From contig CM076961.1 in NCBI GenBank assembly GCA_039566865.1, forward strand, positions 14,221,501-14,285,500: DNA of 64,000 nt. The letters run 5' to 3'. Source of the stretch: Aurelia coerulea (taxonomy: Eukaryota; Cnidaria; Scyphozoa; Semaeostomeae; Ulmaridae). The notes beneath the pieces were generated by a model. The model saw only the letters and a list, made by a program, of their open reading frames with translations, was not told the origin of the DNA and did not search any database. The position numbers and the translations under genes are program-made. This document shows, piece after piece, positions 416 to 56,308 of this stretch; position 1 is the stretch's first letter; the number at the start of each line of letters is the position of its first letter.

Positions 416-465
416 TTAATCTTTTATCCGTGATGATTTTGCATTACCCTTTGTTTGCTTTCCAG

Positions 466-571
466 GATTTCACCCGAACATTATTTCACAGATCTTTGTT
501 TGAATTCAGATAGTGGTGCTGCAGAGGCATTGGGTATAACCCTTGATCTGAACTTGCAATACTTGTGCGAG
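466..571 (+). CDS. Exon 1: helical region
   Basis: An AG acceptor at 464-465 follows a T-rich tract and the donor is GTTTGT. The first base completes a codon from an upstream exon that lies outside the window. The remaining 35 codons are open and include HYFTDLCLNSDSGAAEALG. It ends in phase 0, matching exon 2. Confidence 0.7.
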
Positions 572-27500: not shown

Positions 27501-30500
27501 GAACGGTAAGCATATTTCGCACTGGCTTTGGGATATGTAGTTAGTACTGGAGAGTTGCTAAAGCCTGGTTTCCATATAACCATAAGCGTCGGTGACAGTG
27601 CTTGGACAATGCAGTACACTACAGCTCTACCATGATGGTTGTGACCGGTTGTGACTATTGCTCTACCGTGGTAAAGGTATCATAAAAAGTGTTTCCATTC
27701 GTCCCTAGTATGTCCCAGCGAACTCGCTGTCGTAAAATGACGATAGATTTCCTAATTCTTGATTGGTAAGTTGAAGTCATGTGTTTTATAAGAACAATGA
27801 CATGGTCACAGATGCATCCCCGACGGCTGCGATGCATGTTACATCAAAACTTTCTCGTGGCAGGAGCGTCGTGAGAGCCGGGAAAATTGAACCAAATTCA
27901 ACGTTTACGTCGCCACTGCCTCAGTAGAGCAACATTCGCAACCACGTAGAACCGCCGTAAGGAAGTGTATCCATTAAAACTGAAAACGTCGCAACACTAC
28001 TGTATCAGCACTGGTACAGCCGTGTCTCGCCACTGGCCCCGCCAATTATGGCTATATGGAAACCAGGCTTAAGAATTACACCTACGGTGTCCTCAGTGTA
28101 TTTCACTTTGTTTTTAAGTATGAAATTGGTTGTAAAGAGAAGCCAAGGAGTGTGCACGTTATGACCTAGAAAGGATGTTGAAGCCATTTTGAGGAGCCTC
28201 TATTCGATGATACCACAGGGGGTCAAGGAATATCAGTGAACTGACTGTAGTTTTGATTTCTTTGGTTCCTTGTGATCTGGATTATGAAAACAACAGCTGT
28301 GTAATTTGATACACATTACATCATCAGTGCGGTCGGCCTGCTATTGTTACAGTATAATATATTATAGAGGCACGGGATTTGAAAAAACTGCGAATTCAAA
28401 CCGCAGCCAATGAGATCAGAGCTCTCACATGGCAGAAGATTTTCCTACTGCAACAATAGCAGGCCGACCGCAATGATGATGTAATCTGTATCAAATTACA
28501 CAGCTGTTGTTTTTATAATCCAGATCACAAGGAACCAAAGACACTAAAACTGCAGTCTGTTCACTGATATTCCTGGACCCCTTGTGATGATACTGACAGA
28601 ACAACAAACAAATGTAGAATTTGGGAACGTTTTAGATCGTATTGCTTCGTAGAGCGGAATGAAAAGTACATCCTTCAAAGTGTTTTTACATTTGGTACAA
28701 GTCCTTTGATCATCTCTGCTAAATAGTTTCTAGCTTTATTTGTTTCAGAGTGACCCCATATTCCTTGATTTTCTCTTTGGTCTGGTTTTGATTTGGCATC
28801 AGATGAATTGTATTTCAATATCTTCCCTTCTGCAGAAAAGCTCAATAAGTCTTGAATACAATACTGAAGTAGAGAGAACGTCTCTTGACTGCGGAAAAAA
28901 TCACATTGCATTCGTGTCACGTGATGGGGATGTTTACACTTGGGGAAGATCGAGTCATGGAAGGTTTGTTATTTTATCTACTCAATTTATTGTCAACAAT
29001 CTTTAAAAAGGTCGGTGTAAAATTCTATTACATTTTCTTTGAAATAAATGGCTTGGGGGGAACTTAGGGCTCTTTGCTGTAAATCTGCTGTGGAAATTTA
29101 TTGAATACTTGATTAGTTTCAAAATGGTGGCATTCATTAAATTTGAGGCTATGACGTCATCAAATTTCTAAATTCTAAACCAGAAAAGCTACAGATTAGT
29201 GCTTTCCACAGCATAGGTTCCTAATCTTTAAAAAGGCTGGTGTAAAATTGAGTGACCTATTTCTTTGAACTGAATGACTTCAAAGAAAATTTAGCTAATT
29301 CTCTATAATTCTACCGTTGAAATTTTCTGAAATCTTCAATATTTTCAGAATTAGAGTGTTTTTCTTCTTTTTTCAAGAATTCAAGAAAAATTAAAAAAAA
29401 ACTTAAAACCATCGTAATTTCTAAACAGTTTGACGTAACATGAAATTATTTCGAAGGAAACCATAGATCATAAATGCCTACAATATGGTGCCAAGCAAAA
29501 GTCTACCACTCATCTGGTTTATGATTTAGAAATTTGATGACGTCACATCCTCAAATGAGTTGAAATGTAAGATACGCTGTAATTTCCAAAAATATTCATA
29601 ATTTCTGAAAAGTCCAACGGTAGATTTATAGATAAGTATCTAAAGTTTCTTTCAAGCCATTTGATCAGAAGAAATTGGTCATTGAATTTTACACCCACCT
29701 TTTTACGCCGAGTTAAAGATTTGGAACCTATGCTGCTTTCCACCATATTGTAGACCTTCATAAACTATAGTTTTCTTGAAGTTTATCATTTACTCTCTAT
29801 TGGTTTAGGATTATGATGATTTGAATTTTTTCAAAATTTCCCATGAATTTTTCAAAAATTATTAAATTGCAAATGGCAATAAGCCCTGTGTAAAATTTGA
29901 AAAAGTCAGCAGTATACGAAATAAGATGTGTGCTCTTGAAGTCTTCAAAAGTTTGAATGGCGTATCGCCACACGCCTTTAAAAATTACTTCACGAGAGTC
30001 AACCACATCCAGTGTACTCGTGCCAAGACAAATAACATCGTTTTGCCTAAAGTCAAATCTGAAACAGGAAAGAAGGCCTTTTTCTGTCAAGGAGCAAAGA
30101 TTTTTAATAAACTGAGAAATGAAATGAAGACTGAAACTTCAGTTTTTACGATTTAAGACTTTCTGTAAACATTTTAACTTTGACTTTTAACATTTTATCT
30201 TCTTGGGGTATATTGCTTTTTCTTTGCATTTTAGACAGGTCCTTGCTTGATAGCAGCAAATTTTTGCTGAACAAGTTTAACCTAGGTATAAATATGATAC
30301 TATGTAAACATGTACGTAATCCATACCATGGTCAGCAGCATGATATTATTATTATTATTATTATTTGTTCTTTGCTTTTAATGCAGTACAGTTCTCGCCA
30401 CGGTGCCGAGGTCAGTCCATGTCCCTAAGGCAACAGCAGTGTTCACTTGATGGACAACGTTCTTCTCAGGATGTGGGCGCTTCCGAGGAGAGCAATCTTC

Positions 30501-31845
30501 TGCAATTCTTCAATCCGTATGTGTCCAGGAATTTGACTGACGTACTTCTCAAGGCCTTTCTTGATGAGTCCCAGTGCTCCCACTACAATTGGAACTGTCG
30601 ATGTCTTCATTTCCCACATTTTTGTTACTTCAATTTCAAGATCTTTATACTTGGACAGCTTCTCTACTTCTTTAATCGATACATTTCTTTCAGATGGTAT
30701 ACTCATGTCAATCATAATGCATTTCTTTTCTTTCTTGTCTTTGATAATTATGTCAGGTCTATTAGCTTTTATCTCTTTGTCTGTGCTTACAGGCATGTCC
30801 CATAGTACGGTGGCAGCTTCATTTTCAGTCACTTTCTCAGGTTTGTGCTCATACCACTTATCTGCAGTTGGGAAATGGTAATTTTTGCATATTTTCCAAT
30901 GTAGGTATCCTGCTGCCTTGTCATGTCGCTGTATATATTCCGTCTTTGCGAGTACTGGACAGCCGGCTACAATATGGTCAATAGTTTCCTCGAATTCATT
31001 GCACATCCTACACTTGGGGTCAGTGCCGTCTTTGATGATCTTATTGTGGTATGATCTTGTTGCTAAGCTTTGATCCTGTGCAGCAATTATCAAGCCCTCA
31101 GTTTCTCATTTAAGTCCAGGACTCTTAAGCCATTTGTGAGTCTGTTCTATTTCAACATCTGGCTTATTCACCCTAGTTGGATACTGGCCATGCATCGGTT
31201 TTCCTTCCCATATCTGTCTCATCTTCTCATGTGCCTTCTTCTTTGTCTCCTGCTTTACTCTTTTAGCAAATAAAGTGATTTTTTCTTGTTGTAGTCTAGC
31301 AGTGTCTGGTACTTGTAACTCTCCTTTAAATTTTCTGGCATCTTTTGCAACAGAATAAAGCTTCTTGCTGTTTTCATGCCGGTACACAAGTTTGAGAAGG
31401 GGATCTTCTGTTTGTTCCAGGTACGAGTTTAGCCCCACTGTGGTTGTTTTGAACACGAGTTCGAGCTGAGAGAGGCCCCGTCCGCCACCTTCTCTCGGTA
31501 GGTACATTCTTTCCACATCAGCTTTTGGGTGGTTCATCCTCTCTATAGTTAACAGCTTCCTTGTCTTTGTATCCAGCTTTCTTATTTCACTCATCTGCCA
31601 GTTTACAATGTTGACACTATAAGTAAATACGGGTACAGCAAGTGTATTGATTGCTTCTATCTTGTTTGATCCGTTGAGTTCACTTTTTGTTACCAGTCTC
31701 ACTCTCCTGTAGTATTCTTTTCTAATTTGTTCTTTCATGGTGGCATGCTGTATACCATCACCTTCATTGATCCCTAGATATTTTTAAGCACCTTCCTGCT
31801 CTAGCTCCTTTATTGTGGTATTAGTGTCTACTGTGATGTCTGTAG

Positions 31846-31942
<97 letters not shown>

Positions 31943-31949
31943 GTAGTAG

Positions 31950-32033
<84 letters not shown>

Positions 32034-35000
32034 GCCGCAAGTTTGGAGAAAAAAAATCAAGAGTTAGACAAATTTCCGCGGCAGATTTACAACAAAGTAA
32101 CATAAGTTCCTTTCAAGCCATTCAATTCAAAGACAAATGTTACATAATTTTACACCCACCTTCTTAAAGATTTGAAAGAATTAAGCCCCATGCTTTTATT
32201 GTTAGGCTTTGGACTGGTCATCATAATCCATTTCAAGGGTGCTTCCCACTGTGCAATGAACTCTCATTGCTTTCCTCGTCTCCAATTTTTCAAATGAGAT
32301 AAAACTTTATCTTGCACTGTGAATAACCTTCGACTATAAAGTCTGATTCACATTGATTGTAAAAAACAGGCTTTACATGCAAATGTCGTTTACAGTGCAA
32401 GATTTTGAACGAAGAGATCTTCTGGCTGGAATTGTAGAATGATTACGACCATTTGTACAAATAGCTAATCTTTCAAAAGATGCTTTGGCGCAGCTTTTTC
32501 AATATGGCGCAGCTTTTACTATATGGTATTACCTTTCTGATGACTTGAACAAAAATATACTCGAATTGACTTTACGTTTCATCCACGAAACTGGTTGGTT
32601 TGTTTGAGATCTTTAGAAACTTCAGCTATGTATCAAGCAACGACAAAGTCTCTTTACGTGAATGTTTTTTGTTTTCCTTGTAAATTCTGTTTCCTATTAG
32701 ATGCCAGGCATCTTATGCATCTCAAATCTGCATCTAGTAAAGAGTACTGATGAATGGCATAATAACATTGATTCTCAAAAGGTCAATATGACGATATTTT
32801 TGGATTTGAAAAAGGCCTTCGATACGGTGGATCACAAAATACTGCTCGAAAAATGTTCTAGGTATGGCGTGCAGGGTAAGGTGATTAGCTGGTTTCGATC
32901 CTACCTCGCTGAACGAAAACAGTTTTGCAGAATCAATGGTAAATGTTCTATGTCTTTGGGGGTAACCTGTGGCATTCCCCAGGGTTCCTGCCTAGGCCCC
33001 CTTCTCTTCATCATATACCTTAACGACTTTGAAGAATGTTTACAGTTTTCTTCGGCGAGCATGTATGCTGATGATACGCACACAACGATAGCCTCTGAAG
33101 ATATTAACGAACTTGCCGAGATGATGCAGGAGTAGCTACAGAACATTTCTGAATGGATGAGGGTCAATAAATTAATTGCCAATCCTAAAAAGACTGAGTT
33201 TATGCTTATCGGCCATCCACGTAGAATTAACAAAATTGAACCTCTGGTTCCATTGAAACTTAATGGCACAGAAATAAAACGAGTGACAAAAACTAAATCA
33301 CTAGGGGCTATTGTCGACGAGAATCTAAGTTGGAAGGAACACTTCAAATCCTTGAAAGGTAAAGTAGCAAGTGGTTTGTTTGCAATGAAAAAACTTAAAA
33401 ACATTCTTCCGCAATCTAAGCTATGTGAGGTTTACCATGCGCTGGTTGACAGTCACCTCCGATATGGGAATGTTATCTGGGGTAGCCTGCCCAACACGAA
33501 GCTGCAAACGCTTCAGCGTCTACAGAACAGGGCCTTCTCAATTATTCCAACTGCTAGAATAAAGGACCCCTGGATCAATAATGGGCTGAACGTTGATCAA
33601 ATCATCTATTTTGACAGATCTATCATGACACACAAAATAGTCAACAAGCAGTGCCCTGAGAGCCTCTGGAACAAGTATAGTCAGAGGAATGAAATTTCTA
33701 GGTGTAACACAAGAAACAATAGAAATCTCGACATCCCAAAGTTTAAACTTGAGTGTACAAAAAAAAGTTTCCACCTTTCCGGGCTTAAAGCTTGGAATGA
33801 AATACCAATCGAAATAAGGGAAATCCCCTCGCTCTATCAGTTTAAAAGAAAATTGAAAACGCATTTAAAGAGCTCAGTAAACCCTAACTAAAACACGACT
33901 CCCAGGAAGATCAGATCTCAGCCTGGATCCAATCCTAGCTAATACCAAATTTTATATTTTGTTTTTCAACATTCATTTAAAACAAACTTGTAACTTTTGT
34001 AGTTTAATTTTGCACTGATGGGATATCGTGTAAAAATATTAATCAATAAAAAAAATCCAAACGAGCCCCGCTCGTGAATCTTTTAAGTTCTTCCCAACCC
34101 TGACCCGACATCTAATGTCAGACAGAATCTAGTATCTTATCCATTATCCATTAGTTTTCTAATCGTTCGTAGTGTACAGTTAGTTGCATGTAGTTTAACG
34201 TTATCCATGGGGTAGTCATTGTCTTTCGCTCCCCCTGGTATCGTCCCTGTAGTGTTGTATGGTAATTAGATAAGTATGGTAAATTGTAGAATTTATTGCT
34301 AATTCTTTATATAAATGATGTAAAAAAAAGCAAGATTAACTTTCGTCGCGTTTGAAAAATTAGCTATAAGGAAAGTTCACTGCCCAGTGAGAACCAGTCT
34401 TTTAGGGAGCTTGATCCCATTTTCAGTCCGAAGCAATGGCTGCAAATCCCAAAGGGAGTAGACCGTTCACAAAGGAGTTCAAACCAAGTTGTTTGTTGAA
34501 AAAGAATTGATTTTACAGGGTGAATCAAAATGACTTCAACTGTTTGAAAATTTTTTGATTTGGAGAATACTTATTGGAATGAATCAAAGTTTGATTGATA
34601 TCCGAAAATGTGAAGTATTCTTGTGGGTTTTCTTCTATTTTTCTGAACATTCTAAAATAGAAGTAAATTTGATTTATGAAACCTTGAGGCATAAAAAATC
34701 ATTTTTGCAAAAGTATCAGATCATATATGACCCCACCTGGACTATAGAGACGTTATCTATCATATTCAATCTAAAGTATCTGAATTCAGTCAAAACATCA
34801 TTTTAGCAAATCTAATGTACGATAGAATCAAATCAAATCTAATTTCTATCGAAAATATTGACCTGGAATTGAATAGAAAGTTACGGCTAAGCGAACTTTT
34901 CTTGTCTAAAGTTCCACCCGCTTGGAAAATTTCACTGACTGGAGATTAGTCTTAACAAATTTTCAAGCGGTTGAAGTTATTTTTAGTCCACCCGGTATTT

Positions 35001-38000
35001 CTCTGCAACATTACATTGCAAACAATTGTCTGAATTGCTGAAGTGTCCATTTTTCCCTTCTGCTTAAAAATGACAGTTTTCTTGCAGACTTGGACATGGA
35101 GATATAATCGAAGAAAAGGGGATTTCAGTGCCTTTCAGAGTTGAAGGACTTCACATGCATGGGTAAACACTTTTGCCTCACTTAGAATAGGAGTGCTCAT
35201 TGGTCATAACGATTCTTAGGGTGGAGGTCTGATTCTTTTATAAGAAAAGTCTTGTCATTTTTATTGAAAACTCAATTTTCGATCTGATCATCCTAAGTTG
35301 TCTCTCAAAGGTAAGATTGAAAATGGCGCTACTCCTGGCCGTTATTTATTGCTATATATTTCCATGCTCCTTATGGTATCATTTTGAAATCTTTGTATGT
35401 TTTGTAAATTGTATGGGAATATAAAAAACGTTATTCCGTCAATCATGCATCTGTCAAAGGGAAAAGATCCGACTTTTAGGCTCTGTCATTAGCCAAACTG
35501 AGTACTTGTTCGCACATCCAAAAAATAGTCCAGAGCCTGTAACATTACTATGTTTCTTTTTCTCTTTTCAGAATTCAAGTGCTCTCAATTGCCTGTGGTG
35601 CAGCACACACTATTGCCGTTTGTAGAGAAGGAGTAAGCACTTATGTTACAGGAGTGTCGCATTTTATGTTCCATTTTCGCTAGATGCCAAGAATTAGCCC
35701 TGTCCACAAGTTGCTCGGCAACTTTCGGTCTTTTGGGCAACTTTTAGGAATTTTGGCAACTTTTGTAACATTGAGAAACTTGTCCTTATTTTAGCAATAT
35801 TCGAGCAATTTCTATGATATTTTATTTATTCTCTGCAACTGTAATGAAAATTAGACATGGAAAGGAGCTGTGTTCTGGTCAGGCTGGGATTAAACGTCTT
35901 GGTTTGTGAAGAACTGGTCTTTGAAATTAACAAATTGTGACTATGATCAGTATGATGATGATGATGATGATGACAACGATGATTATTATTAACCATCAAT
36001 TAATGTTGTTGTTGTGGTTGTTGTTGTTTTTAAGCAACAAATGGTTTCTGCTGAAATACTCAAGATGTGTTACATGGTTCCAACAGAATCAGTGTCGAAA
36101 GGCTCAAACTTCCAGGAAGCTGCGGTTACGTCATAAAAGAAATGTTGAAAAAAAAATTAAGACACCTTTCATCATCCTTGGCGCTAACTTTATGCACATT
36201 TGTCAATTATTCATACATCTATAGCACTTGGCCTTCAAAAATGACAATGAATGAGCAACTTTTGAGCAACTTGTTGAAAAAGTGGCAACTTTTGAGCAAC
36301 TTTTCAGGAAATTATGAGCAACTTTTCGAAATATTTTGAGCAACTTTTGGACAGGGCTACCAAGAATAAAAATAACGAACTTTGCTCGATTTTGACTATG
36401 TAGTTAATTGTTTCGTTTTCTTTGTTGTAGGTTTATTCATGGGGGTTCAATAACTTAGGACAGGTGAGATAGTATAGTGATTACACAAAGGAGAGGGTAA
36501 ATGTCATTATTTTCAGCGATCTTAAACAGTCAATTGAAGTGAAATATGGATGTTCATGCCTCCTTTCCACCTGCATTGTAGGGCTGACAGGCCTAACAGG
36601 GTTGACAGGGCTGACAGTGCTTAACCTAGACGAGAGATCTGTACAATAACAGTCGTATGTTCAACCAGTAGCGAAGGATTCTCCATCGTAAAGGCCCTTT
36701 TAAAGGAGAAGCATCTATTTACAGCCTCCTAATATAATTTTTCGCTACCTCTGGATACGATGATAATTCATATAATTAGAATGCCATTTGTAGCCAAATC
36801 GAGCAAACCCTTCGATGCTACTTGAGTATGTCACTAAAGTCCCGAGGTGGGGGGGGGGGGTCCACGGTACGGAGCTGTGGCACTTTCTAGGGTACCTCTT
36901 TTAAAATAGAATCCAGATTTATGAGTATAGATTGAACGATTATTTTTATTTCCAGAGCATGGGTATGCTTTTTATAAAATAGCGTTTGAATGTAAACTTT
37001 TTCCACTTTGCTCCACGGATTTATGGGTATACTTTTGTAGCTTTTTCTGGGTTTATGGGTATACTTGTAAGACATTTTGCCCGATTTCTTGATGGTACTC
37101 CTGCGCTCTGATTGTCACAATCCCATGTTATGAACTCAAGTACCCCCCTGCTTCACAGTATTAAATGCAAATTTAATAATACTGCTTTTAATAGCAGTTA
37201 TACAGCTATGTTATAAAATTGTACCTCGTAGCTTGGCGTTGGAGATACTCGCCGAAGGAGCAGACCATGCCTTATTTCACAGTTAACACCAAAGAATGTT
37301 GCAACAGTCACTGCGGGGCATTATCACACTCTGGCTATTGATGGAGACAATAAAGTATGGGCATGGGGCTGGGGTATTCATGGACAATTAGGAGTGAAAT
37401 CAGCTGAGAATGCCAAGACTCCTGTCAATATAGCATTACTGAATTCACAGAAAGCTGTGCAAATTGCTGCTGGATATGCCCATAGTGTTGTTCTGTCGTC
37501 TAAGGTATGTACTTCTATTTGTTTTCATCGTGTTTACTCCTGGATGGTGCATGTGGTTAGAGTATTCATGAACTTGCCCGAGTCTCTTCCGCTTTTTCTC
37601 TACGCAGAGGTCATTATTTTGGTATTTGACGCAGAAGAGACTTGGCAAGTTCAGGGTATTCACGGCTGATTAGGAGCTGACAGTCCAAACTACGTATCTT
37701 ATTGTAGCGAAAACTTGCAAAACCTTGAATTGCAAGACTTAGTCTCCAGGGTATCATCTGTACGTTTCCTGAAGTAACTGATGTTTCTTTGCTCAACATT
37801 GACAAATGGCAATTAAACGTCTTGCCTTGCAAACTCTATGAGCATATTTAGGGAGCATGCAAGCTCCTCTGCAACTGGGTTTTGCAATGGTAGCTTTAGC
37901 GATTGCAACTTTATTCTTCTACAGTATTTAACTTTTGGTAGGTTTGAAAAATTTCTAATAACTAAATGTATCACTGTAATTTCTTTATCTGTTTTTTTGC

Positions 38001-41000
38001 CTTGTAGGGATATGTATTCACATTTGGTGCAGGTGAGTTTCTTTGTTCTAAATGTGAGAATTACTGTGTTTACATTTCATTACCATGCATTGTGAGGGAA
38101 GATGGCAAAACGATGCGTACATATGGAAGATTCAAATGAAAAGCTTGCAAGCAGTGAATTGCAACTCATAACGTCGTCCCAAAGAAGCTATTTTTTTGTT
38201 AGAATCATGTTTTCATAGACTACGAGATCGTATGATATTCACCTACGTTGTGCAACACACTCACTCGTCGTTGCATGCCATAGCCCATTGTTTTTGTCCA
38301 TCATCATTTTATTTCAACCAAATACTTTTTGCTTCAAATCGTATTCTAGAGATTATTTGAGACCTTTTCTGTCAGCCCAGTTTTGTCATTCTTCTTAAAG
38401 GACAAGTCCGGGGTTGGAATATTTGTTCATAAAATGAATGATTACAATGTTGTGAATGGCGTGTAGTACTTTTTCCAACCTTCTCTGTCTTTTCTCTGCA
38501 AAGTTGCGTGTTTCAATCTGCGAAATGAGCGAAATGATGTCATTATTCATGACGTCATTTAACCCACTCCGCCTTCGACCTGAACGAGGCTGTTTTCTTA
38601 TAGAACTCTCCAGTAATTTCCGACGTCACAATGAAACCTCCCAACCAAGGCTAGCCATTTTATCGCGTTTTACAAAATGGTGACGACATTGGGCCTAACT
38701 TACGAAAAATGCTGTGCGAATTTACAACAGAAAAAGCTATCAGAAGTTGGAAAAATGCTACAAGTGATGTTCGGCAGTTGGTAAAGTTGCTTTTTGACAT
38801 TAATTGTAGAAACCCCGGACTTGTCCTTTAAGCCAATTTTGTTACTTTCTAATATGCTGATTTGTTGTCATTACTTTCTTCCCGGAAACTATTCAAAGGG
38901 TTGAAAGAATTTCTTACAGACTTAAAATTTGTTATCATTACGCTTTTTTAAGTTGCTTACTTTTATAGAAAATCTGTTTCATTGCACTATTTATGTTGTC
39001 TACAGGTCTCTATGGTCAGTTAGGAATCGGAGTCAACACGAAAGTTACAACGCCGAAGCTTGTTAAACTTCTGATGGATGAATCGATCTATCAAATTGCT
39101 TGTGGGGCATTTGAAACGGTAAAGAATTGAAGGTTTTCTTTTGTAATCATAACAGTAAAGCACTGCAGATCTATCAAATTGCTTGTGGGGCATTTGAAAC
39201 GGTAAAGAATTGAAGGTTTTCTTTTGTAATCATAACAGTAAAGCACTGCAGACCTATCAAGTTGCTTGTGGGGCATTTGAAACGGTAAAGAATTGAAGGG
39301 TTTCTTTTGTAATCATAATAGTAAAGCACTGCAGATCTATCAAGTTGCTTGTGGGGCATTTGAAACGGTAAAGAATTGAAGGGTTTCTTTTGTAATCATA
39401 ATAGTAAAGCACTGCAGATCTATCAAATTGCTTGTGGGGCATTTGAAACGGTAAAGAATTGAAGGTTTTCTTTTGTAATCATAACAGTAAAGCACTGCAG
39501 ATCTATCAAATTGCTTGTGGGGCATTTGAAACGGTAAAGAATTGAAGGGTTTCTTTTGTAATCATAATAGTAAAGCACTGCAGATCTATCAAGTTGCTTG
39601 TGGGGCATTTGAAACGGTAAAGAATTGAAGGGTTTCTTTTGTAATCATAATAGTAAAGCACTGCAGATCTATCAAGTTGCTTGTGGGGCATTTGAAACGG
39701 TAAAGAATTGAAGGTTTTCTTTTGTAATCATAACAGTAAAGCACTGCAGACCTATCAAGTTGCTTGTGGGGCATTTGAAACGGTAAAGAATTGAAGGGTT
39801 TCTTTTGTAATCATAATAGTAAAGCACTGCAGATCTATCAAATTGCTTGTGGGGCATTTGAAACGGTAAAGAATTGAAGGTTTTCTTTTGTAATCATAAC
39901 AGTAAAGCACTGCAGACCTATCAAGTTGCTTGTGGGGCATTTGAAACGGTAAAGAATTGAAGGTTTTCTTTTGTAATCATAACAGTAAAGCACTGCAGAT
40001 TCATAAAACATGAGAAGGTTTAACAATCTCTTTAGTTCAGTTAACACCAAAGATATATTGAACGTCTTTATATGTAACCATGGCCGATCAATGCAGCTTA
40101 TCTGGTTTACATTTGAGTTGTTCGCAGTTGGAGTCATTTTTATTCTTTTTGTGTGTTAACAATGGGTGTCTCGTAATGCAGTATACGCAAAGATCTTTTC
40201 AGTTAATTTACTTTCGCAACTTTCGCAAAAGCATATTTACTTTTATATTACTATTAGGTCTGTTATTACATCCCTAACCTTACGAAATGTATCACTTCGT
40301 TGTTAGGTTGCTATTTCTGAAGACCAAACGATATTCTCTTGGGGAAGAAATTACAAGCAGTTTCACATATGTGCTGTAAGTCTAATTTCTGAGGGGTTGC
40401 AGCAATGCATTTTTTCATATTCCCATAAAATTTACAATCAACAAACGAAGGTTTCAAACGATGCCACAAGGAGCATGGAAGTACACAGCAACCCTGCGAC
40501 CATAACATTTAACATAGAGATTCAAAATTAACATTACTTAAGGTATTACAAATTACACATTAAAATAGCGATTACAAATAATTCCGACAACAAATAATTA
40601 CAATAAACAAATGTCAAGAAACCAGTTACAACAGAGAGGAGGTTTTTAACAACAACTTACTGAAACCGTTCTGAGGCCTGAATATATTTTAATGTTGCCT
40701 CGAGAATTTTTGTATTTGAATCTAAAGATAATTTTTCGTGGCCATACAGAATGATTTGGAGTATAGTTTTATTTGAAAGGTTTGTTAATCCATTGAGTCG
40801 CAATATCGCATTTACACTGCTGAGAAGGTCACGTCTATCCTCGTCATAAGCATGGAAGAGCAGCAAAGGTGTTCCGTAACCTCAATACTTTCAATACTAT
40901 CAGTACAATACTATCAATACTATCCTCGAGAGCATAGCTTCCAAATCTTTAATTCGACTTAAAAAGGTGGGTGTAAAATTCTGTGATCTATTTCTTCTGA

Positions 41001-44000
41001 CTGAGTGGCTTGAAACAAACTTTAGTTACTTATCTTTAATTCTACCGGTGGACTTTTCAGAAATTTTCAATATTTTTTGAAATTTCAGTTTATGTTACAT
41101 TTCAAATCATTTGAGGGTGTGACGTCATCAAATTTCTAAATCATGAACCAGAAAAGTGACAGACTTTTGCTTGATACCATATTGTAGACAACCATCAACT
41201 ATGGTTTTCTTTGAAATTATTTCATGTTGCTTCAAACAGTTTAGAAACTACGATGGTTTTAAGTTGTTTTGAAAATTGTTCTTGAATTCTTGAAAAAGAA
41301 GAAAAACACTCTAATTCTGAAAATATTGAAGATTTCACAAAAGTCCAACGGTAGAATTACAGAGAAATAGCTGAAGTTTCTTTGAAATCATTCAGTTCAA
41401 AGAAATAAGTAACTGAATTTTAGACCAGGCTTTTTAAAGATTTGGAACCTATGCTATCCTCGATACTTTTAACCTTATATATTTTCTTGTATCTATTTTT
41501 ATATTATATACTTGTAAATATTTTTAAGATACGTGGCAAATGATACATACATACATTCATATATATATATTTATATATATATCACTTATCGGGCACAAAG
41601 GATTTAAAGTATCGCTGAAGTTATGTCCAATACGAAGCTGTGTTAACATTGATAAACATTTTGGGTCGTGAATGTTGTAGACCAGTTCGGAGGTGGACGG
41701 ATGAGTGCTAATGGTTGTTTCTTGAAAACATTCACTGAGCAGAATTTTTTAATCACAGGGTCAAGTTTTTCCCATTCCGACAAACAGTTAGGATAGAAAC
41801 TTTATTTGAATCTCGCACGTATTTGCCCTATCGCAGCTCGCCTGCGAAGACTGTAGTCAGATTCCTGATGCTGAGGTACAAAACTTCTTGTGTAATCTGG
41901 AGTCAAATTATTGATGATCTTATAGAAAAGAACAAGGCGTCTACTCCATCGTCGGGGGTTGAGCGATTCCCAATCAAGTTCATGATAAATTTTCTGACGA
42001 GATGTGCCCTTCCAAGCGCCAGTTACTGCCAATGCGGCAGAGTATTGAACTGATTCGAGTTTTTCCATTGCATTAGTCAAGTGACAGTTTGACTAAATTC
42101 ACAGGTATATTGCGGAATGTGATATATTATGTCACCATAGTCTAAATGCGGTCGAACATAGAGTTTATATATTTCGTTGAGCTTATGTCGCGGCAAATAC
42201 TTTGAAAGAAATCTCAACATCCCTATTCCTTGTCTTCATTTTGAAATAACTGATTGAATATGACTAGCGAAGGACAGTTTAGAGTCTGGTATGACACCAA
42301 GGTGTTTTGCTCCTAGACCCTGAGGCTTATAACATTTGTTAAGCGTATGTCGCGGCAAATATTTTTAAAGTAATCTCAACATCCCTATTCCTTGTCTATA
42401 TTTTGAAATAACTAATTGAATACGACTAGCGAAGGACAGTTTAAGGGTCTAGTATGACACCAAGGTGTTTTTTGCTCCTAGACCCTCACTACTACATGGA
42501 AACCGCCAGGATGGCGTACAGGTCAATTAATGAGGAAGCTCCCAATTACCTTGCAACTCTGTTCGAGAGGTTGTCGGAAAAAAGCGTCAGAGAGCTTCGT
42601 AATACTAATACAGACCTGAAGCTGCCTTTCCTGAAAACGTCCAGTGGTCAGGTCAACGGTGCTTTGCTTGTAGAGGAGCACGATTATGGAATAGCCTTAG
42701 CGCTGATGTCAAGACAGCGTCCACCTTAAATCGATTCAAAGCTACATATAAAACCAGCAAGTAATCTTTTCGGTTAAACCCCTTATTTACATATCAGTTT
42801 TATTTTGATCTTTATCCTTATATGTAAATTTCATGATTAGAGATATTTATTTTGTTGTTATTTACAGGGCAATTTGGAAGTCAGTATCTAACTGTTTATT
42901 TAACCTTGTTTAAAGAATTTAAAATGAACTGAAATGAAAAAAAATGGAACACTATTTAAAAAGATGGGTGGGTGATTCGTTGGAATGCATTGCATTGCAT
43001 TCAGAGCAGACCTAGCACTGCTATTACCATCTTTCATCATTGATCATAAGGGTCTGGTGATGATTTGTATTTTCGCTGAAATTTGCCACTGAAGACCATT
43101 ACTTGCGTGAAAGAATGCCTGGAACGAATGGTTCGGGTTTCTTCTTAAATTACTGCCGAGCTAAGTTTTTTGACAATTTGATGAGGATTTGTTTCGGTTT
43201 GTTGCAAGGCAAGGCCATTTTTTTATTGCAATCTTGCGTGATCTGTTGACGTAAATTTCTCACAACCAATGCAGTGCTACATAGACATAAAACACTCTTT
43301 TTTCCACTCAGACTATTTCTTATTGCGTTATTGCCGTCTGACGTTTCATAAGTAGTTTCACAACAGTTACAGCTTACTTCTTATTTCACCTGTGTCTCTT
43401 AATCCTTGCAGAAAGCTGAAAGCACATCGAGTGGACGACAGCTGGCTAGTTCAGTAGCAACTGATCTTAGTCACAAATACTACCCTGAAGAATTATCATT
43501 TCGGCTACCAGAACCAATAGCTCAAGTAAGTAAAGTACCCTTCAGGGACCTCAACAGGTTCTAGTTACGTATATAGTTGAAATACCAAACATTTTTTTCA
43601 TTTTCGCTGTTTTCCTCAGTCAGTGGCACTTTTTTAAAGACAACCTTTTCATTTGCGTATTCTCCAGTTGTGAGACTATGCCAAATTTTCCTTTGTGAGA
43701 CTATGCCAAAGTTGTGAGACTATGCCAAACTCCAGCCTCGATTGCATGAACCCTCAACAGAGACCAAAATACATTCGAGTTAGCGAAGAGCTCGAATTAT
43801 GAACTGTCAGCTATTCAGTACAAAACTTATAGTTTTGTTAGGACACTAAATGACCGAAACGATGGTTACAATATGGCTTCTTAGAAACAGGAAGAATAAG
43901 AGTTTCTTCCTCCCGCCCTGTGATAGCTGTATATAACCGAATGTGCTTCTTTCAAACTCTGCTCAAGTATGGCTACAAGTATGGCTACAAGTATGGCTTT

Positions 44001-47000
44001 GCAGAAATTCTGACAATATGATAACTATGCTTTCAGACAGCTATTCCTTGAACTGTTGTTGCAACATGGTTCAATTCAATTCAATTTCATTCATAGAAAT
44101 TCATCCTAATACAAGTTTATCAGTAAAAATGTGTATTCTGTACGACCCAGGATAGCTTCTCCTTACAAGGCATAGCTTCTCCTGACGTGCAAGAAATTTT
44201 CCATGAAAAAGGCAGCAAAAATTTTCTGCAATCTTTCCGTGATGCAATCAAAAATGACATGCGTAGAAGTGGTATTATTAAGGGCGCAATTTTCTTGCTG
44301 GTAGCAACCTAAGCAACTTTGTTTCTTCTTACATGCTTTCTTCTTTCCCAACATACTGCCCGAGTCTACCCCCATTTCCTTACTCTCCTAGTTTCTTTCC
44401 CTTCCCTTTCCATCCCTTCCTTAATCTCTTTCTTCTCTTTTCCCTTACTTTCCGTTTCTTTTTCCTTTTTCCTTTCTTCCTTCCCGGGAAATTCGAGCCT
44501 TTCACCTCCCTTCCTAGTTGCGCCGCTACCACGCTACTTCGTTTTTTGAGCCCTGTTATTACGTGGCCACTAGAAATTTTGGCAACCTGACTAGCTTTTG
44601 GTATTAGTCCAGGTTTCATTGTTGATTAGTCTGTTTGTTGCAATTACAACTACAACATTAGTGTTTTTGTTGTTGCAGTTTTCAGATCAAGGTCTATCGA
44701 ACAAGAGCAGATTTTGTAATACAATAGCAAAAGTTGCGTTTGATTGACACCTCAATTCAAAGCGATTAGCGGCTGCAGACAAAGGAAATTCTCTCAACCA
44801 ATAATTCAAAACAAACAAAGCCGCAAAAGTTTCCCCAAAACTGGTAGGACAAACTCTCGCCTTGTGCAAGCGAAAGATGGTTTTTAAGGGAAGTTATGTG
44901 CTTATAGCGAAAGAAGAAGGGTAAATCTAAAGTTCTGTCGCTTAGATTATATTTATTTGATTCAGGAGCGGAGCAGAAGGCATTGTAATTCTCGCATCTT
45001 TAGGGCTTAAAATGAAACGATTTCAAAACAGCTCCTAAATCAAATACACATAATCTAAGCGACAGAACTTTAGATTTACCCTTCTTCTTTCGCTATAAGC
45101 ACATAACTTCCCTTAAAAACCATCTTTCGCTTGCACAAGGCAAGAGTTTGCCCTACCAGTTTTGGGGAAACTTTTGCGGCTTTGTTTGTTTTGAATTATT
45201 GGTTGAGAGAATTTCCTTTGTCTGCAGCCGCTAATCGCTTTGAATTGAGGTGTCAATCAAACGCAACTTTTGCTATTGTATTACAAAATCTGCTCTTGTT
45301 GGTCTATCGTGTGTGGTATGTTTATCATGTGTTACGTTACCTGTTAACAATTATTTGGCGATTGGCATTTTATTAAATGTCACAATAAAGAATGATAGCA
45401 TTAGTCAGTGTACCTTTTATTTCTTTCCTTTTAGCTAACCGTTGGTAATTGGCATTTCGTGGCTTTGACAACTGTTGGGCAAGTGTACACTTGGGGTTGC
45501 AATGACTGCGGACAACTGGGTCATTACAATAAAATCGATCAGGTAAAAATGTAATCATTTTGTAGTTTGCATTTCACTAGTGGGGAGTACTATTCCAACT
45601 AATTATCAAAGCAGTTATAAAGGGCGTTCTGATTCATTCTTATTGCCCCGCACTAGCGGGGCTTAGTAGTACTCCGTGCGCAGGTAATACAAAGGGAGAG
45701 CACCTCAATATTTTCGTCTTTCCTGTTTTATTTTTCGTCTTTCTGGTTAAACCGGTTTTGATCTAATTGGAAAAGAGGCTGTGATCACGAGGTAGACAAT
45801 ATGGCGGATAGGCCAGTTTAAGTTGTTAGTGGTTCGAATATGTGAAAATTGTCAACAGAAGAGATAGAAGAAATAGTTGCGAGTTTGATTTCATTTTATT
45901 AGCTATGATTTGAAGCCAAATATGATGCTGATAATGATTAGGAGTGGTACTGGTGATGTGAATTTAGAACGCCTCGGTGTTTAGGCTAGTCTACTAGGTC
46001 AGCGAACACAACAAATACAAAATGCAACACAGTAGTGATAATCAAACTTTATTAGGCCAAATCCGTGAAGCCTCAATGAAAACTAGCGACAGTTAAATAC
46101 TACATTCCCCACCCCCACCTGTACGTGTGTGGGCGGGGCATTTAGTATTTACTATTGCTAGTTTTAACTGTTTTGGCCTTGCATGTTCAAACTGTGTAGC
46201 ATTAAATTCTTTTTTTTTCATATCACTGTTAAAACTAAAACGACAAAAATACAATATTCTTTACCGTCAATAGCAGGAATAGACATGACGTCATCTGGTT
46301 TTGGCTATGAACGTCACTTAACTAACTCTTTAACAACAATCTCATAAAACATAAGTAGAATGAAGAACGTAACTATTAAGCCCTTTGTTTACCATGGTGC
46401 AATTCCATTTTAACAGGCGCTAGCATGCGCCAGTGTAGCATAGGTGAATTGATGTTGAAAACTATGCACTGGTGCAAGACCTGTGCAAAGATGGTTGAGA
46501 TCTTCTAAGTTACCGACGACTGATGCCATGGTTCACACCCAAAAGAGCCGAGCAAGCGGAACCTGAACCCGCAAAGGCTGCAACCACCACAGGCCCAAGC
46601 ACCTGCTACCAAGCTCTTAAATTATTTCCTTACACCATAGACAACCCCACGCATTGTTAAAGCCTTGTCAAGAAGATACATCACATCTGTAGCTGCTGGG
46701 TCAGAATTTACTGTTTGCGTTGATGCAGAAGATCAAGTGTTTGCGTGGGGAAGAGCGGACGCTGGACAGGTATTTTTTCATTCCACTCTGTATTGGCTGG
46801 TCAACTCGTATCTAGTTTGGAAGTAAGTTTTTCGTTCTTAAGTATCGAAAGATAAGGATTTGACGACTTGGTTACTGAGATATCTTTTGTGAGGGTGAGT
46901 GGTCCCGAGTGTGGCATTGTAGCCAGGAAGGAGATTTTGAAACTTGACACTTTCGCGCTCATTCTCAACAACGAGGTGAGGTGGGCCTACCCAGCCAAGG

Positions 47001-50000
47001 TGAATGTCGCAGTATATTAGACCTTAAAGAAGCTTATTTGCTGCCCCAGAAGGCAAAGAGAAGGATAAACACAAGAAGGATACAAGGTGATTTATATCAT
47101 TTATTTGAAACCCAATTGAATTCATTCACGGGAACCTAAATTTATCCTACAACCCATGTTTAAACCGTTTCCGTCAGGTGACTGAAATTAAAATCGGTCG
47201 AATGAGGTGAAACTCCGGATGGGTGACCTCTCGGAGGCCTGATCTCGCAACTCACCTCGCCTTCCTTCGGAAGGGACGTTAAACTAGGGTTCCATGCCTG
47301 GATTCGGCATGCATACTGGGCCTAAATTAGCCTAAATTAGAAATCCTTTCAGCCCAATTAAAATAAATTACCGAAGAAAAGAGATATCTCAGATGGAAAG
47401 ATAATCACTCACGTGTAGCAGTCATTTAAATGCTTCTCTCCGGGAACTCGGCGTGGTGTGGAAGAAGTTTATAGTGTGACTCTGCTCTATAAATTTAATT
47501 TTTTTTTCATTTTCAAATGATTATTTTCTTGATTATTTTGCTAAATTGCAACATGACGGAAATGGCAGTTGAGAAAATTGCTTGCGAAAGTTTATGTCTA
47601 ATGCGAAGCAATTTAAAAACCTTTTGCAATCGTGACCAAGCTCATTTTACATTAGTTTAGCCAAAGCCAGTATGAAATTAGACCATACAGCTGTTTGCAC
47701 CTTTTTCAGCTTGGTATTGATGGTGGTGTTTGTAAAGAATGTACTCCTGGAAGTTCAAAGAAGGCTGCAATTTCAATTTTAGCCCCTACTAGTGTTCCGG
47801 GTGTACCACCCCCAGGTGAAAGATCAGACACTATTGGGTCGGCTGGGGTAAGTTTTTGTTTATCTTTTCACGTTTTTCAATGTGAAGGCTTTCAATAGTA
47901 TGATATTTTTTATGTACCGGGTGTCCCAAAATGATGTATCATCGTTTGATTGCTTATATGTCCATAATCGATGAACCAATTTCAAAAACTTTATTTTATC
48001 CGATTGCCGAAAGGCTAAATTGTGTTTGAGGATGCTGGTTGTGGCTTAGGCCGATGTCTTCATGTTGAAAAGAAGATCGATAAACCTGCCCAAATTCAAG
48101 CCTTATATGACATGAAAAAGAAACGGCCTACTTTCCCAGTCAATGTTTTAGATGTGATGCAAAAGGCTGAACTTATATATTGTTCAGAGAAGATGTGTCT
48201 TTCAGAGAATACGAATTCAGTTAATACTGAGTTCAGAGAATACGAATAGGAGTTCAGCCTTTTGTATCACATCTAAAATGTTGACTGAAAAATAGGCCGT
48301 TTCTTTCTCCTGCCATCTAAGGCTTGAATTTGAGCAGGTTTATCGATCTTCTTTTCGACATGAAAACGCTGTGGTAAAACCACAGCCAACATCTTAAAAT
48401 ACAATTTAGCCTGTAGGCAACCAAATAAGACAACGTTTTTGAAAATCAGTTCGTTGGTTATGGACATGTAACCAATCAAACAATAATACATCATTTTGGG
48501 ACACCCGGTATTATATTACATTATTATATTATATGTGCTATGTTATGTTATGTTATGTTATGTTATGTTATGTTATGTTATGTTATGTTATGTTATGTTA
48601 TGTTATGTTATGTTATGTTATGTTATGTTATGTTATGTTATGTTATGTTATGTTATGTTATGTTATGTTATGTTATGTTATGTTATGTTATGTTATGTTA
48701 TGTTATGTTACGTTACGTTATGTTATGTTATGTTATGTTATGTTATGTTATGTTATGTTATGTTATGTTACGTTACGTTATGTTATGTTATGTTATGTTA
48801 TGTTATGTTATGTTATGTTATGTTATGTTATGTTATATTATATTATATTTTCTACTGCATGAGTCATAAGCAACGTGGGACGCTTAGCAAGATTTTATAG
48901 GTGAAAAACAAGTCAGATCGGATCTTCTAAAGTTTTATGTTGCAGAAGAAAAATGAAATTACTTGTTGACATTTAGTTTGCTATGACTGATCCTTCCTTT
49001 CCATGTAAATTTGTTACTTTGTAGTGTTGCTATTTTGGTGAAAATGGATAATTTTTATAGAACTTCCTGCTTTCTAGATATGACAGTAGTAGCTCTTTTT
49101 TTTTACTCTAACACAATGCATGCCTTGTTTCAATTTGTTGGCAGAGAACAGTATGTTTGCCATGGTTTAGAAGTACACACGTGCATAAATATGAATCAAA
49201 TTAAAGGTCTATGTTAGGAATCTTGCGAAACACCATGCTACCAAAATCGCCTGTAATTATTGAATAGAAACACTGATTTCGACAAACTAAATTTTCATAT
49301 CTAAGTCAGCCTTTTTCCGACAGAAAGAATTCTCAAAGAAATGAATTTGTGAAGTAAATTGCATCAATGAAAATTGACGAACACCCCACGTTTTTTCTGA
49401 CTCACCCAATTGATGTTGGACCTATGCTCTACGTGAATGGTATCTTACAAAACTGGATTCGTTTTTATTTTAGAGTGCCAATAACAGAAGAGATTCATCA
49501 TTTGATATGGACGCAGAATTTCCAGACTTTTCATCAGTAGGTAGGTTGTGTTAGAGTTCTGTGGACACTTTAGCATATAAACAATGCGAAAACTAAAATT
49601 GAGAAAAGAGACTAGACTGACAACATGGTTCCTTGTATTCGTTCGACATTTCTCATCTCGTCTTTTTAGTTTCACTCGTACACGGACTCACAACCAAACA
49701 AGTTCTAAACCCGGACGAAATGCTGTTGAAAAATTAAACGTCTTCTATCCTACAAACGCCGAAAGGGAAGTTGAATGTCGCTTTGAATGTCACTCCGAAC
49801 GTCGCTTCGCCATCGAAAAGTCGAACTTTGAACTAATAAGCCAATCAAACGCTACGAATAAGCACGTGGGTTGACCATATTAAGAAAATGGCGATCTGAT
49901 TGGTCGCGCCGTGAACGCGGTCTAGTTGGCCAAATTAGTCTGCGTTTGGAAGCTGTATTATTAGTCATGAAGCCATAACCAGCATCCAGTTCAATGCGGA

Positions 50001-53000
50001 AAATTGAGACTCATGTAATCACCCTAAAAAGAGACTAGCATGTTGTCAACCATTACCGCCCCATTTTCTTTAACTTCTCAAGAGGGCTTCGTCAACAACG
50101 AAAATGTTGAAAGCACGCGAAAATACTTTGCTGACGCTGTTATCATCAATTTGGAAAACTGTCATTTTTCATTTCTTCTCATTTTAAGCATTTTTACACT
50201 GGGATACAAGACAGTTTTGTAACAAGTTAAACAAACACTTTCCTTTTGTCCCAGCAAGAAAGTGGAGAATATTATGTTAACCCTAAAAATTTCTAGATAT
50301 AAACCTACTTTCAACATTCATATCAAATAACTGAACTGCTAAACTTGAAAAAGAAAAGGGAAATATTATAGTTGCGATGTAGATGAGATTTCCTTGAATA
50401 TTCTCAATGTAAAGCTTTTCATTTTGTTTTGAATGACTGAATCGAAGAGGCAAATTTCATTTCCGAGTTGTGTTTATCTTTGGTTTATTCCATGCATCGG
50501 CTCCACGAAACGCAAATGATTTTTGGTCATAAGCTGTTCTCATTTTGTTACAGCAAGATTGCATTCGCCATTGCGTAAAATCCGGTATGAAATTCAGACA
50601 ATCTGGAGATAATATTTCCTAGGTTTTCAGGTGCAAGGTAATTTGAGGACTTATATACCATCGTGCATTTTTTCGATTAATCAGCCTATCAGTTGACGGA
50701 CAGCCAGGCTCCTGCAATAGAGGATCAGCTGGAGTGTCAAAAGGGCTACTTCTAACAATTCTAGCAGCTGTGCTCTGTAATTTTGCAAGGTTTTCAATTT
50801 AGTTGCCCCACAAAATCCCCAAACAGAGCAACAATAACTGAAATGTTGCTTGGCTCTTCAATTCTAACATGCATATTCCTTAATGCTGAACATATTCTGT
50901 CTCTCGATTCACATACCAGGTTTGGAGTTTTATCTTCATATCTTTATTAGTATATATGAAAATATGTTTTTTTACTGTTTAATTTACGTCATGTAATAGT
51001 TATTTGAGCTGAATTGTAATTAGGTTAGAGGCCTTCTTGGCCTAGATGCCTTATTATGTAAAAGTAATTAAAAATATATCACATACTTTGCAAGTACAAT
51101 AGCATAGGAATCTTTCAAATCTTTAAAACGGTGGGGGGGATTATATGACATGTTTCTTTGAATTGAATGGCTTGAAAGGAAGTTATGGTGCTTTGCTGTA
51201 AATCTGCCGTGGAAATATTTTGATATCATGATTTGACTTCACAATCCAAGAGGTTCCAAACTCCAGCACCACGATATGAGAAAGCTAGCAGACCATTACT
51301 TGTTCTCATTAGTGGGACTTGAAGATCAGTTGCGGTGTTTCTCAAATTTTTCCCTCTGCATGTCGAATTTTTAATGAACATTTCTGACAGGTAATCAGGA
51401 GCAAGGTCATTTATCGATTTGTAAACCATGCAAGCTGTCTCGGTTTTTATCATATCTGCTACAGTAGGCCAATTCAAACTTTTAATCAAAGCACTAGCAG
51501 AAGAATCATAACTGCTGTTGGTCACAATTCTAGCTGCGAGGTTTTGAAGTTTTTGCAGCACCTGCAACCTGGTCCCCCCACATGCCCCCCAGACTGAACA
51601 GCAGTAGCGGAGATGCGGTTCAACGATACCACGATACATTTTAGAGAGAGTGTCTTTTGGAAGTAACTTCTTGGCATATTTAAGAAATCCAATAGCACGA
51701 GAAACCTTAGATCGTACAAAAAAGTACCTTACGAAACTTCTTTAAAGTACGAAACCTTAGTCCGTGTACATTTAATATGGCGTTCTTAGTCATTAAGATA
51801 TTATCGAAGATAATCCTGTCATATCATCAATATGTTAAAGTTTTTAAGGTGTTGCTACCTACTTTGAATTAATTTTTTAATCAATCACACATTTAGACAA
51901 ATGATTCTTTACAAAATATAGATTCTGCTAAGTTGATTTTATTTGCTATTTTAGGCCATGGAGCTGTTGCCTATTCTCCAGAATCCGTTTTGGTTGCATT
52001 GCAAAAGTTGAATGGTTCATATGATGCTACTGCGATACTGAGGTAAGTCTGCCCGTGGGAATTGATGATTTTCACTATCAAGTTTGGTAGAATAGAATGA
52101 AATCTACTGCCATGATAGCCTTTCATAAACCAAAAGAAGCTAACATACCGGGTATCACCAAAAAAGTATGGGACAGATTTGATTGGGTCCAATGATGTGA
52201 ATTTGCTTTTATCAATGGCTCTAATCTCTTTCAAAATGTTTTTTTTATTCAGTATGAATTTTTTACAAACAAACTACTTAACGCACTACGTACGAGCTAC
52301 TTTACTACACTACAAGGGCAACGATACCACGGAGTGCAAGAGACCATGACAACTCCACAGTCATTAACATAGAAAACGTGTAACTAAACTAAAATTCAAT
52401 GTACAGCTACGAAAAATACACATGAACAATTTCTACTGATAAATACTAAGGTCCGTTTCACATTGTATGTCGAGCTAACTTTGGGAAATCAGTTCTTATT
52501 CATAGGAATGGGTGAACTGGAGATTCAATTTTCAAATTAGAATGGATTTGTGCCCAATGAGTCTAACACACAATGTGAAACAAACTCACAGAAAAAGAAA
52601 GATGTTCGCCGATAGTCAACTGGAGGTGCTTTGAGAGCAGAAGCATTAATCTTGAAAGCTTTTTGGCCTGAACAAATTCTGGAATTACAGTGTTTTACTG
52701 CCCATGTGATTCAATAATTTGCTAAGGCCAAAAAGCCAAAGCTCTGGTCTGGAGGTGAACACAAATTTGAGCTTTCAAGATTGATATTTCTACTCTCAAA
52801 GCATCGATATCAACAAACAAGGTATCTATGTTCAACTTAAGTAGCGAGGAGAAACATTTTGAAATTGATTAGCCATTGATTAAAGCTAAATTCATATCGC
52901 TGGACCCAACCAAACTGGTATTCTATTGATGTTCGGTACAAATAATGGATGGATCAAATACGTGACCCCCAAGATGAACCATTGCTTAATAGCTTTCTAA

Positions 53001-56000: not shown

Positions 56001-56274
56001 ATTCTCAGTTCTCTTGAGCTCTTTTCAAAAATATCTCTCAGAAAAATATCCCGTCACTGTAGAATGGCATGATCGATCTGAGTGAAATGAATTTCTACAT
56101 TTAAGTTAGGCTTTCTGCTACAAAATTACTAGTATTTGATTTAAATCGGCGCACGATTCATAATGATACATTTTGGCAAAATCTTTTTGGAACATGCGGT
56201 AGTTTTGATTACCCTAACTCCATTGAGTTGAGTTGAGTTGTTGCTGTTGTTTTTGTTGTTGCTGTTATTCTTGG

Positions 56275-56308
<34 letters not shown>

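Follow-up and report, generated by a model that had tools for sequence, protein, structure and literature searches.

Mirage minisatellites, in which short tandem units lie over an exon-intron boundary and multiply its splice signals, are known from the lancelet genes Adh3, BflGb6 and BflGb9 (both globins), troponin C and PGBD5, and the published accounts give units of 10–160 bp together with regular mRNA splicing (PMC3087553, PMC3902484). The mirages in Adh and troponin C are reported to yield no aberrant mRNAs (PMC3902484), and mirage-copied signals have been proposed as potential cryptic sites that could found new introns (PMC3087553). A related human case that does not carry the name concerns genes in segmental duplications whose exon-intron boundaries bear internal tandem repeats; these repeats reportedly may form novel introns via cryptic splice sites (PMC2812944). 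Intron gain by tandem duplication is also on record (PMC4974935, PMC2891723), and Rogers's AG/GT proto-splice-site idea is cited in PMC3087553. Searches of the openly licensed literature yielded no array termed a mirage outside lancelets, and for similar cnidarian cases that literature gave only the lancelet PGBD5 paper and no further clear case.

Here we describe an array of 83-bp units in an RCC1-repeat gene of the jellyfish Aurelia coerulea, located in a 64,000-nt stretch of genomic DNA (the window). Most likely it is a mirage minisatellite like those of lancelets, here in a cnidarian; regular splicing and copy-number variation are predicted for it. Short tandem units over an exon-intron boundary with copied splice signals are common to the lancelet mirages and to this array, whereas the array differs in being cnidarian and in having an exon part of exactly 11 open codons, so that inclusion would preserve the frame. 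In lancelet mirages the number of copies reportedly varies and the mRNA is reported to be spliced regularly; the cnidarian array is known from one genome sequence. With the human boundary repeats it shares minisatellite expansion at an exon border and the possible activation of cryptic sites, but transcript support and possible introns are reported for the human repeats, whereas the copies here are known from DNA and appear wholly intronic (PMC2812944). New potential donor/acceptor pairs are likewise common to the array and to intron gain by tandem duplication (PMC4974935, PMC2891723). Unlike in those cases, no new intron is supported here and the authentic intron is merely enlarged; intron gain would be a plausible later fate. 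Schistosome micro-exon genes obtain protein variation through exon inclusion. They resemble the array in their very short exons; however, they have long introns and encode secreted proteins, whereas here near-identical units with 50-nt spacers lie in a conserved RCC1-repeat gene (PMC10526429).

Gene model and orthologues

The gene model is a spliced alignment of the window to the orthologue P0121 (1606 residues), in which the last anchor pair, 56438 to 60027, was left unjoined. It gave a colinear RCC1-repeat gene with 26 GT-AG introns of 409–12663 nt. The alignment to P0121 starts at its residue 432 with the first modelled exon and continues from there; therefore the label "exon 17", which the initial annotation used, is valid only as a count of exons inside the window, the gene itself starting upstream. 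The features of the model that concern the array are as follows.

464..56539, + strand: modelled gene span with 26 introns; homology near 60027–60140 is not joined, and the gene start lies before the window
37232..37504, + strand: upstream RCC1-repeat exon, the one whose structure was predicted
38008..38032, + strand: 25-nt microexon GYVFTFGAG from the homology model; conserved, phase 0 to 1, bordered by introns of 503 and 973 nt
39006..39118, + strand: authentic exon (LYGQLGIGVNTKVTTPKLVKLLMDESIYQIACGAFET) from the spliced alignment to P0121; unit 1 has the last 33 nt of this exon as its exon part
39119..40306, + strand: putative authentic intron, 1188 nt, GTAAAG...TTAG, made up of the 50 intronic nt of unit 1, then units 2–11 and 308 nt beyond the array
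40307..40375, + strand: next conserved exon (VAISEDQTIFSWGRNYKQFHICA) from the spliced alignment to P0121

In the alignment, the junction 39118/40307 is phase 0. Protein searches placed the gene in a medusozoan RCC1-repeat gene family. One search returned 450 matches at E ≤ 1e-20 and another 288 at E ≤ 1e-12 (the best 120 considered in each), and most of the matches listed were general RCC1-repeat proteins. Among the matches listed, seven orthologues span the junction (P0019, P0121, P0122, P0123, P0125, P0126 and P0127) and are 62–88% identical over the searched part, with P0121 at 88% and P0122 at 82%; by their source names, P0123 is Hydractinia symbiolongicarpus LOC130624943 and P0125 is Hydra vulgaris LOC101237479. 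An eighth relative, P0073, stops short of the junction, and P0124 (30% identical) was left out of the comparison. No gap or insertion was found at the junction in any of the seven, over 55 columns around IYxIACGxFET/xAISEDQT. Because all seven are ungapped there, the protein would normally carry one copy of the IYxIACGxFET strand, as judged from orthologues rather than from the window's own species; the orthologue sequences come from other records, several of them predicted models, and have no bearing on species-specific isoforms.

A protein search of the animal's own genome gave 12 matches, of which three were the array gene itself and nine were 30–38% identical. These nine paralogues are too distant for a comparison of intron history. 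Nine candidates for shorter protein fragments possibly carrying the repeat were considered, and none reached E ≤ 0.001.

Other repeats are present in the window. An inverted repeat (44700–44969 and 45031–45300) with 270-nt arms, 98% complementary and 61 nt apart, lies in the modelled intron 43526–45434, 134 nt upstream of the exon at 45435; once transcribed, its arms could pair as a strong hairpin. A direct duplication at 19000–20429, with copies 958–963 bp apart and 99–100% identical, lies in the modelled intron 11679–24341. Tandem Repeats Finder also reported simple arrays of TATGT (48539–48846, about 61.6 copies) and TTA (31847–32033, about 62.7 copies). Long open reading frames that resemble, by eye, pieces of retroelement proteins occur in or near the introns at 30443–31783 (−), 32701–33891 (+), 60124–61362 (+) and 13558–15291 (−).

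Structure of the array

Sequence inspection identified eleven head-to-tail 83-bp units in a 913-bp array, and Tandem Repeats Finder reported 39085–40000 with a period of 83, 11.0 copies, 97% matches and a score of 1706. This score is far above the chance level, which does not hold for the in-frame appearance of the units. The elements of the array are as follows.

39086..39998, + strand: array of eleven 83-bp units of six sequence types, each with 33 nt of exon end and 50 nt of intron start
39202..39954, + strand: ten extra donor copies ACG/GTAAAG, the first intronic base at 39202 and then every 83 nt to 39949
39161..39998, + strand: CACTGCAG in eleven copies, of which the first ten each precede a copied 33-nt block; weak acceptor-like sites

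Each unit reads, in order, 33 nt of exon (ATCTATCAAATTGCTTGTGGGGCATTTGAAACG or a variant), GTAAAG, a T-rich stretch and CACTGCAG. As in a mirage, all eleven tandem units span the boundary of a conserved exon and are homogenised: only four of the 83 positions vary, two in the exon part and two in the intron part, and their six combinations make up the six unit types. Each variant base is common to at least three units, and units 1, 2, 5 and 10 are identical in sequence. The initial annotation had spoken of eleven exact 83-bp units, which is right for their length but not for their sequence. Both variable exon positions change the amino acid, and the three peptide variants that it listed were all recovered (IYQIACGAFET in five units, IYQVACGAFET and TYQVACGAFET in three each).

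The donor ACG/GTAAAG is present in 11/11 units, and translation past it gives Val-Lys-Asn-stop, with a TGA after three codons. Possible unit exons start at 39169, 39252 and so on to 39916, and all ten extra copies are in frame, open and bounded by GT and AG. The unit sequences thus bear out the earlier description of open blocks of 11 codons with a phase-0 junction and a TGA on read-through. They also agree with the proposal that a minisatellite captured an exon border, given the 33 nt of exon end and 50 nt of intron in every unit. The copied portion is the last 33 of the 113 nt of the exon, and the authentic acceptor at 39005 lies outside the unit, which rules out a whole-exon tandem duplication.

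Splice-site quality of the units

Splice sites were scored with a matrix built from the gene's remaining 25 introns, a small set from one gene whose introns were modelled by homology, so that very short introns could be missed. The unit donor has the sequence of the authentic donor and scores 4.8 bits, a value below which only one of the 25 other modelled donors falls. The unit acceptor reaches 2.5 bits; two of the 25 other modelled acceptors are lower, and it lies at the 83rd–84th percentile of the 3,541 AGs in the window. Among the 77 AGs in the stretch, the unit acceptors rank 5th to 15th. The authentic acceptor at 40307 scores 3.8 bits (3/25 others lower), 1.3 bits above the unit acceptor. 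The matrix is not sharp, because 40307 is surpassed by two other AGs of the intron, at 40258 and 40118, and the 1.3-bit gap is small and speaks only weakly against the units; the pyrimidine, upstream-AG and intron-length measures are stronger.

At positions −20 to −5, the pyrimidine fraction is 0.375 in 11/11 unit acceptors compared to 0.56–0.94 in 26/26 modelled acceptors; a T-rich stretch is present further upstream in the unit. Furthermore, every unit acceptor has an AG 8 nt upstream, whereas an AG within 15 nt is present at two of the 26 modelled acceptors. A YTNAY branch-like motif within 60 nt is absent at 11/11 unit acceptors, and also at four of the 25 other modelled acceptors; the acceptor at 40307 has CTAAC at −33 and CTTAC at −28. 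The unit intron is 50 nt long, eight times below the shortest of the modelled introns, and its length does not occur in the gene (at least 409 nt in 26/26, and up to 12663 nt). Taken together, the unit sites are in frame, open and equipped with an authentic-type donor, and their acceptor is pyrimidine-poor and 1.3 bits under 40307.

Recursive-splicing sites consist of AG/GT with a strong upstream pyrimidine tract. In the units, AG/GT occurs only as GAAG/GTTTTC, in 6/11 units, with an acceptor score of −2.3 and a purine-rich upstream sequence. Recursive splicing, which had been suggested in the form of a ladder, finds no support in these values.

Chance and origin

Tandem duplications were simulated at the 26 donors of the gene, with units of 60–110 bp spanning the donor and at least 15 nt upstream and at least 35 nt downstream of it; a duplication counted when it gave an in-frame open mini-exon of at least 9 nt, an AG and an intron of at least 40 nt, and short exons were not treated apart. 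In-frame open mini-exons arose in 12,146 of 47,736 duplications (25%), and 2,691 of 47,736 (5.6%) also had an acceptor score as good as that of the array. At the array's own donor, 46% were in-frame and open, and 20% also had an equal acceptor score. The test gave no sign that the exon part is under greater constraint than the intron part (variable sites 2/33 compared to 2/50; Fisher p = 1.0). The in-frame mini-exon look of the units thus looks like a by-product of the position of the duplication.

In the 574-Mb genome, the unit occurs 11 times, always in this array (a lower bound, as very common words were skipped), and the whole region was found once in the one assembly searched. Other matches to the unit within the window are short (11–19 nt), and a dispersed repeat family inserted here was rejected on these two observations. 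Because all 11 copies sit in the array and the region is found once, the unit most likely arose at this locus.

Minisatellites with a period of at least 20 and at least five copies were found at 10 distinct loci in 200 kb (twenty sampled 10-kb stretches), six of them with a period of 50–150; extrapolated from this small sample, there would be about 29,000 in 574 Mb. Since this density is high, some minisatellites that straddle exon borders would be expected. The earlier view that tandem exons of this kind are unusual holds only in part, as minisatellites are dense (10 loci/200 kb) and several lancelet genes have mirages on record. Satellite-like arrays were also seen in the sampled stretches, at L030:4-9963 (period 249) and L025:2770-7559 (period 175).

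Discussion

These results make it very likely that the array is a mirage-type minisatellite in a cnidarian, passive and removed whole with the 1188-nt intron. GAT is present at both unit edges, in the exon (...TC GAT CTATC...) and in the intron (...GCA GAT TCATAA...). A single tandem duplication may have joined a point in the exon to a point in the following intron at this common GAT, although three bases are too few for proof of such a starting event. Slippage or unequal exchange would then account both for the eleven copies and for the likeness of the units. As the breakpoint followed an AG at a codon boundary, the blocks resemble in-frame mini-exons. We infer that the exon 39006–39118 is defined by the upstream acceptor and the nearest donor, 39118/39119, and that 39119–40306, including the extra donors, is spliced out as one intron, with the extra 33-nt blocks as passengers. 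Both this duplication route and this splicing outcome are presented as probable courses rather than as observations.

The initial annotation had raised, among other possibilities, a different course, in which the units are alternative mini-exons: their 50-nt introns would be removed and 11, 22 or more residues added to one RCC1 blade in some transcripts. The frame, openness and GT and AG ends of 10/10 extra copies, an acceptor within 1.3 bits of the true one and the modelled 25-nt microexon in the same gene all speak for it, but the claim did not hold up against introns of 50 nt where the 26 modelled ones begin at 409 nt, a poor pyrimidine tract with an AG close upstream, 7/7 orthologues without an insertion and the 25% of simulated duplications that give in-frame open units by chance. 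The protein structure adds a weak argument. In the structure predicted for the neighbouring exon 37232–37504 (mean pLDDT 73.7, pTM 0.67; strands 23–28, 32–37, 42–46, 74–80 and 85–90), the equivalents of the FET/VAI junction, placed by eye, fall after residue 33 (strand 32–37) and after residue 85, with which strand 85–90 begins. Because these positions lie inside beta strands, an added copy would have to be looped out; however, the last copy would rebuild the hairpin IYQIACGAFET-VAIS, so that added copies would sit as extra strands ahead of it. The structure thus makes insertion only slightly less likely. Splicing of units into the message is unlikely on this evidence, and we regard their use as alternative mini-exons as very improbable. 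Much the same holds for a young, unstable exon reservoir from which some transcripts include at least one 33-nt unit, which we consider highly doubtful.

It is possible that the array acts as a splicing decoy. The extra donors could also form a quantitative brake, in which use of a downstream donor retains a TGA, the message is degraded and the number of units tunes the protein level. All eleven donors are GTAAAG after ACG, and any later donor keeps the first read-through TGA in the message; competition among them is conceivable because the donor is rather weak (4.8 bits, with 1/25 other modelled donors lower). On the other hand, the sequence carries no sign of selection on unit number, and lancelet mirages are reported without aberrant mRNAs (PMC3902484); we judge such a brake improbable. 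A literature search on competing identical donors turned up no relevant paper among those listed. Finally, the true allele might have one or few units, the rest being an assembly artefact. Assemblers are known to make mistakes in tandem arrays, and a single assembly lies behind the sequence; one lancelet mirage was reportedly assembled aberrantly in a draft (PMC3087553). Yet the six unit types follow a non-periodic order over eleven units, which assembler copying would not readily yield, the array is short (913 bp), and the genome falls into 294 contigs, including one of 50 Mb, which suggests that the assembly was built from long reads. An artefact is accordingly extremely improbable.

The presence of a mirage in a cnidarian suggests that mirages may arise wherever minisatellites are dense. 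The array also offers a natural experiment on donor choice, with eleven identical donors of which only the first keeps the frame open without further splicing. If the reservoir reading were true, individuals with different unit numbers would make RCC1-repeat proteins with different counts of the added 11-residue strand, and an exon family would have been caught at its birth from a minisatellite. If any unit is used, new exons and introns would be caught at their origin.
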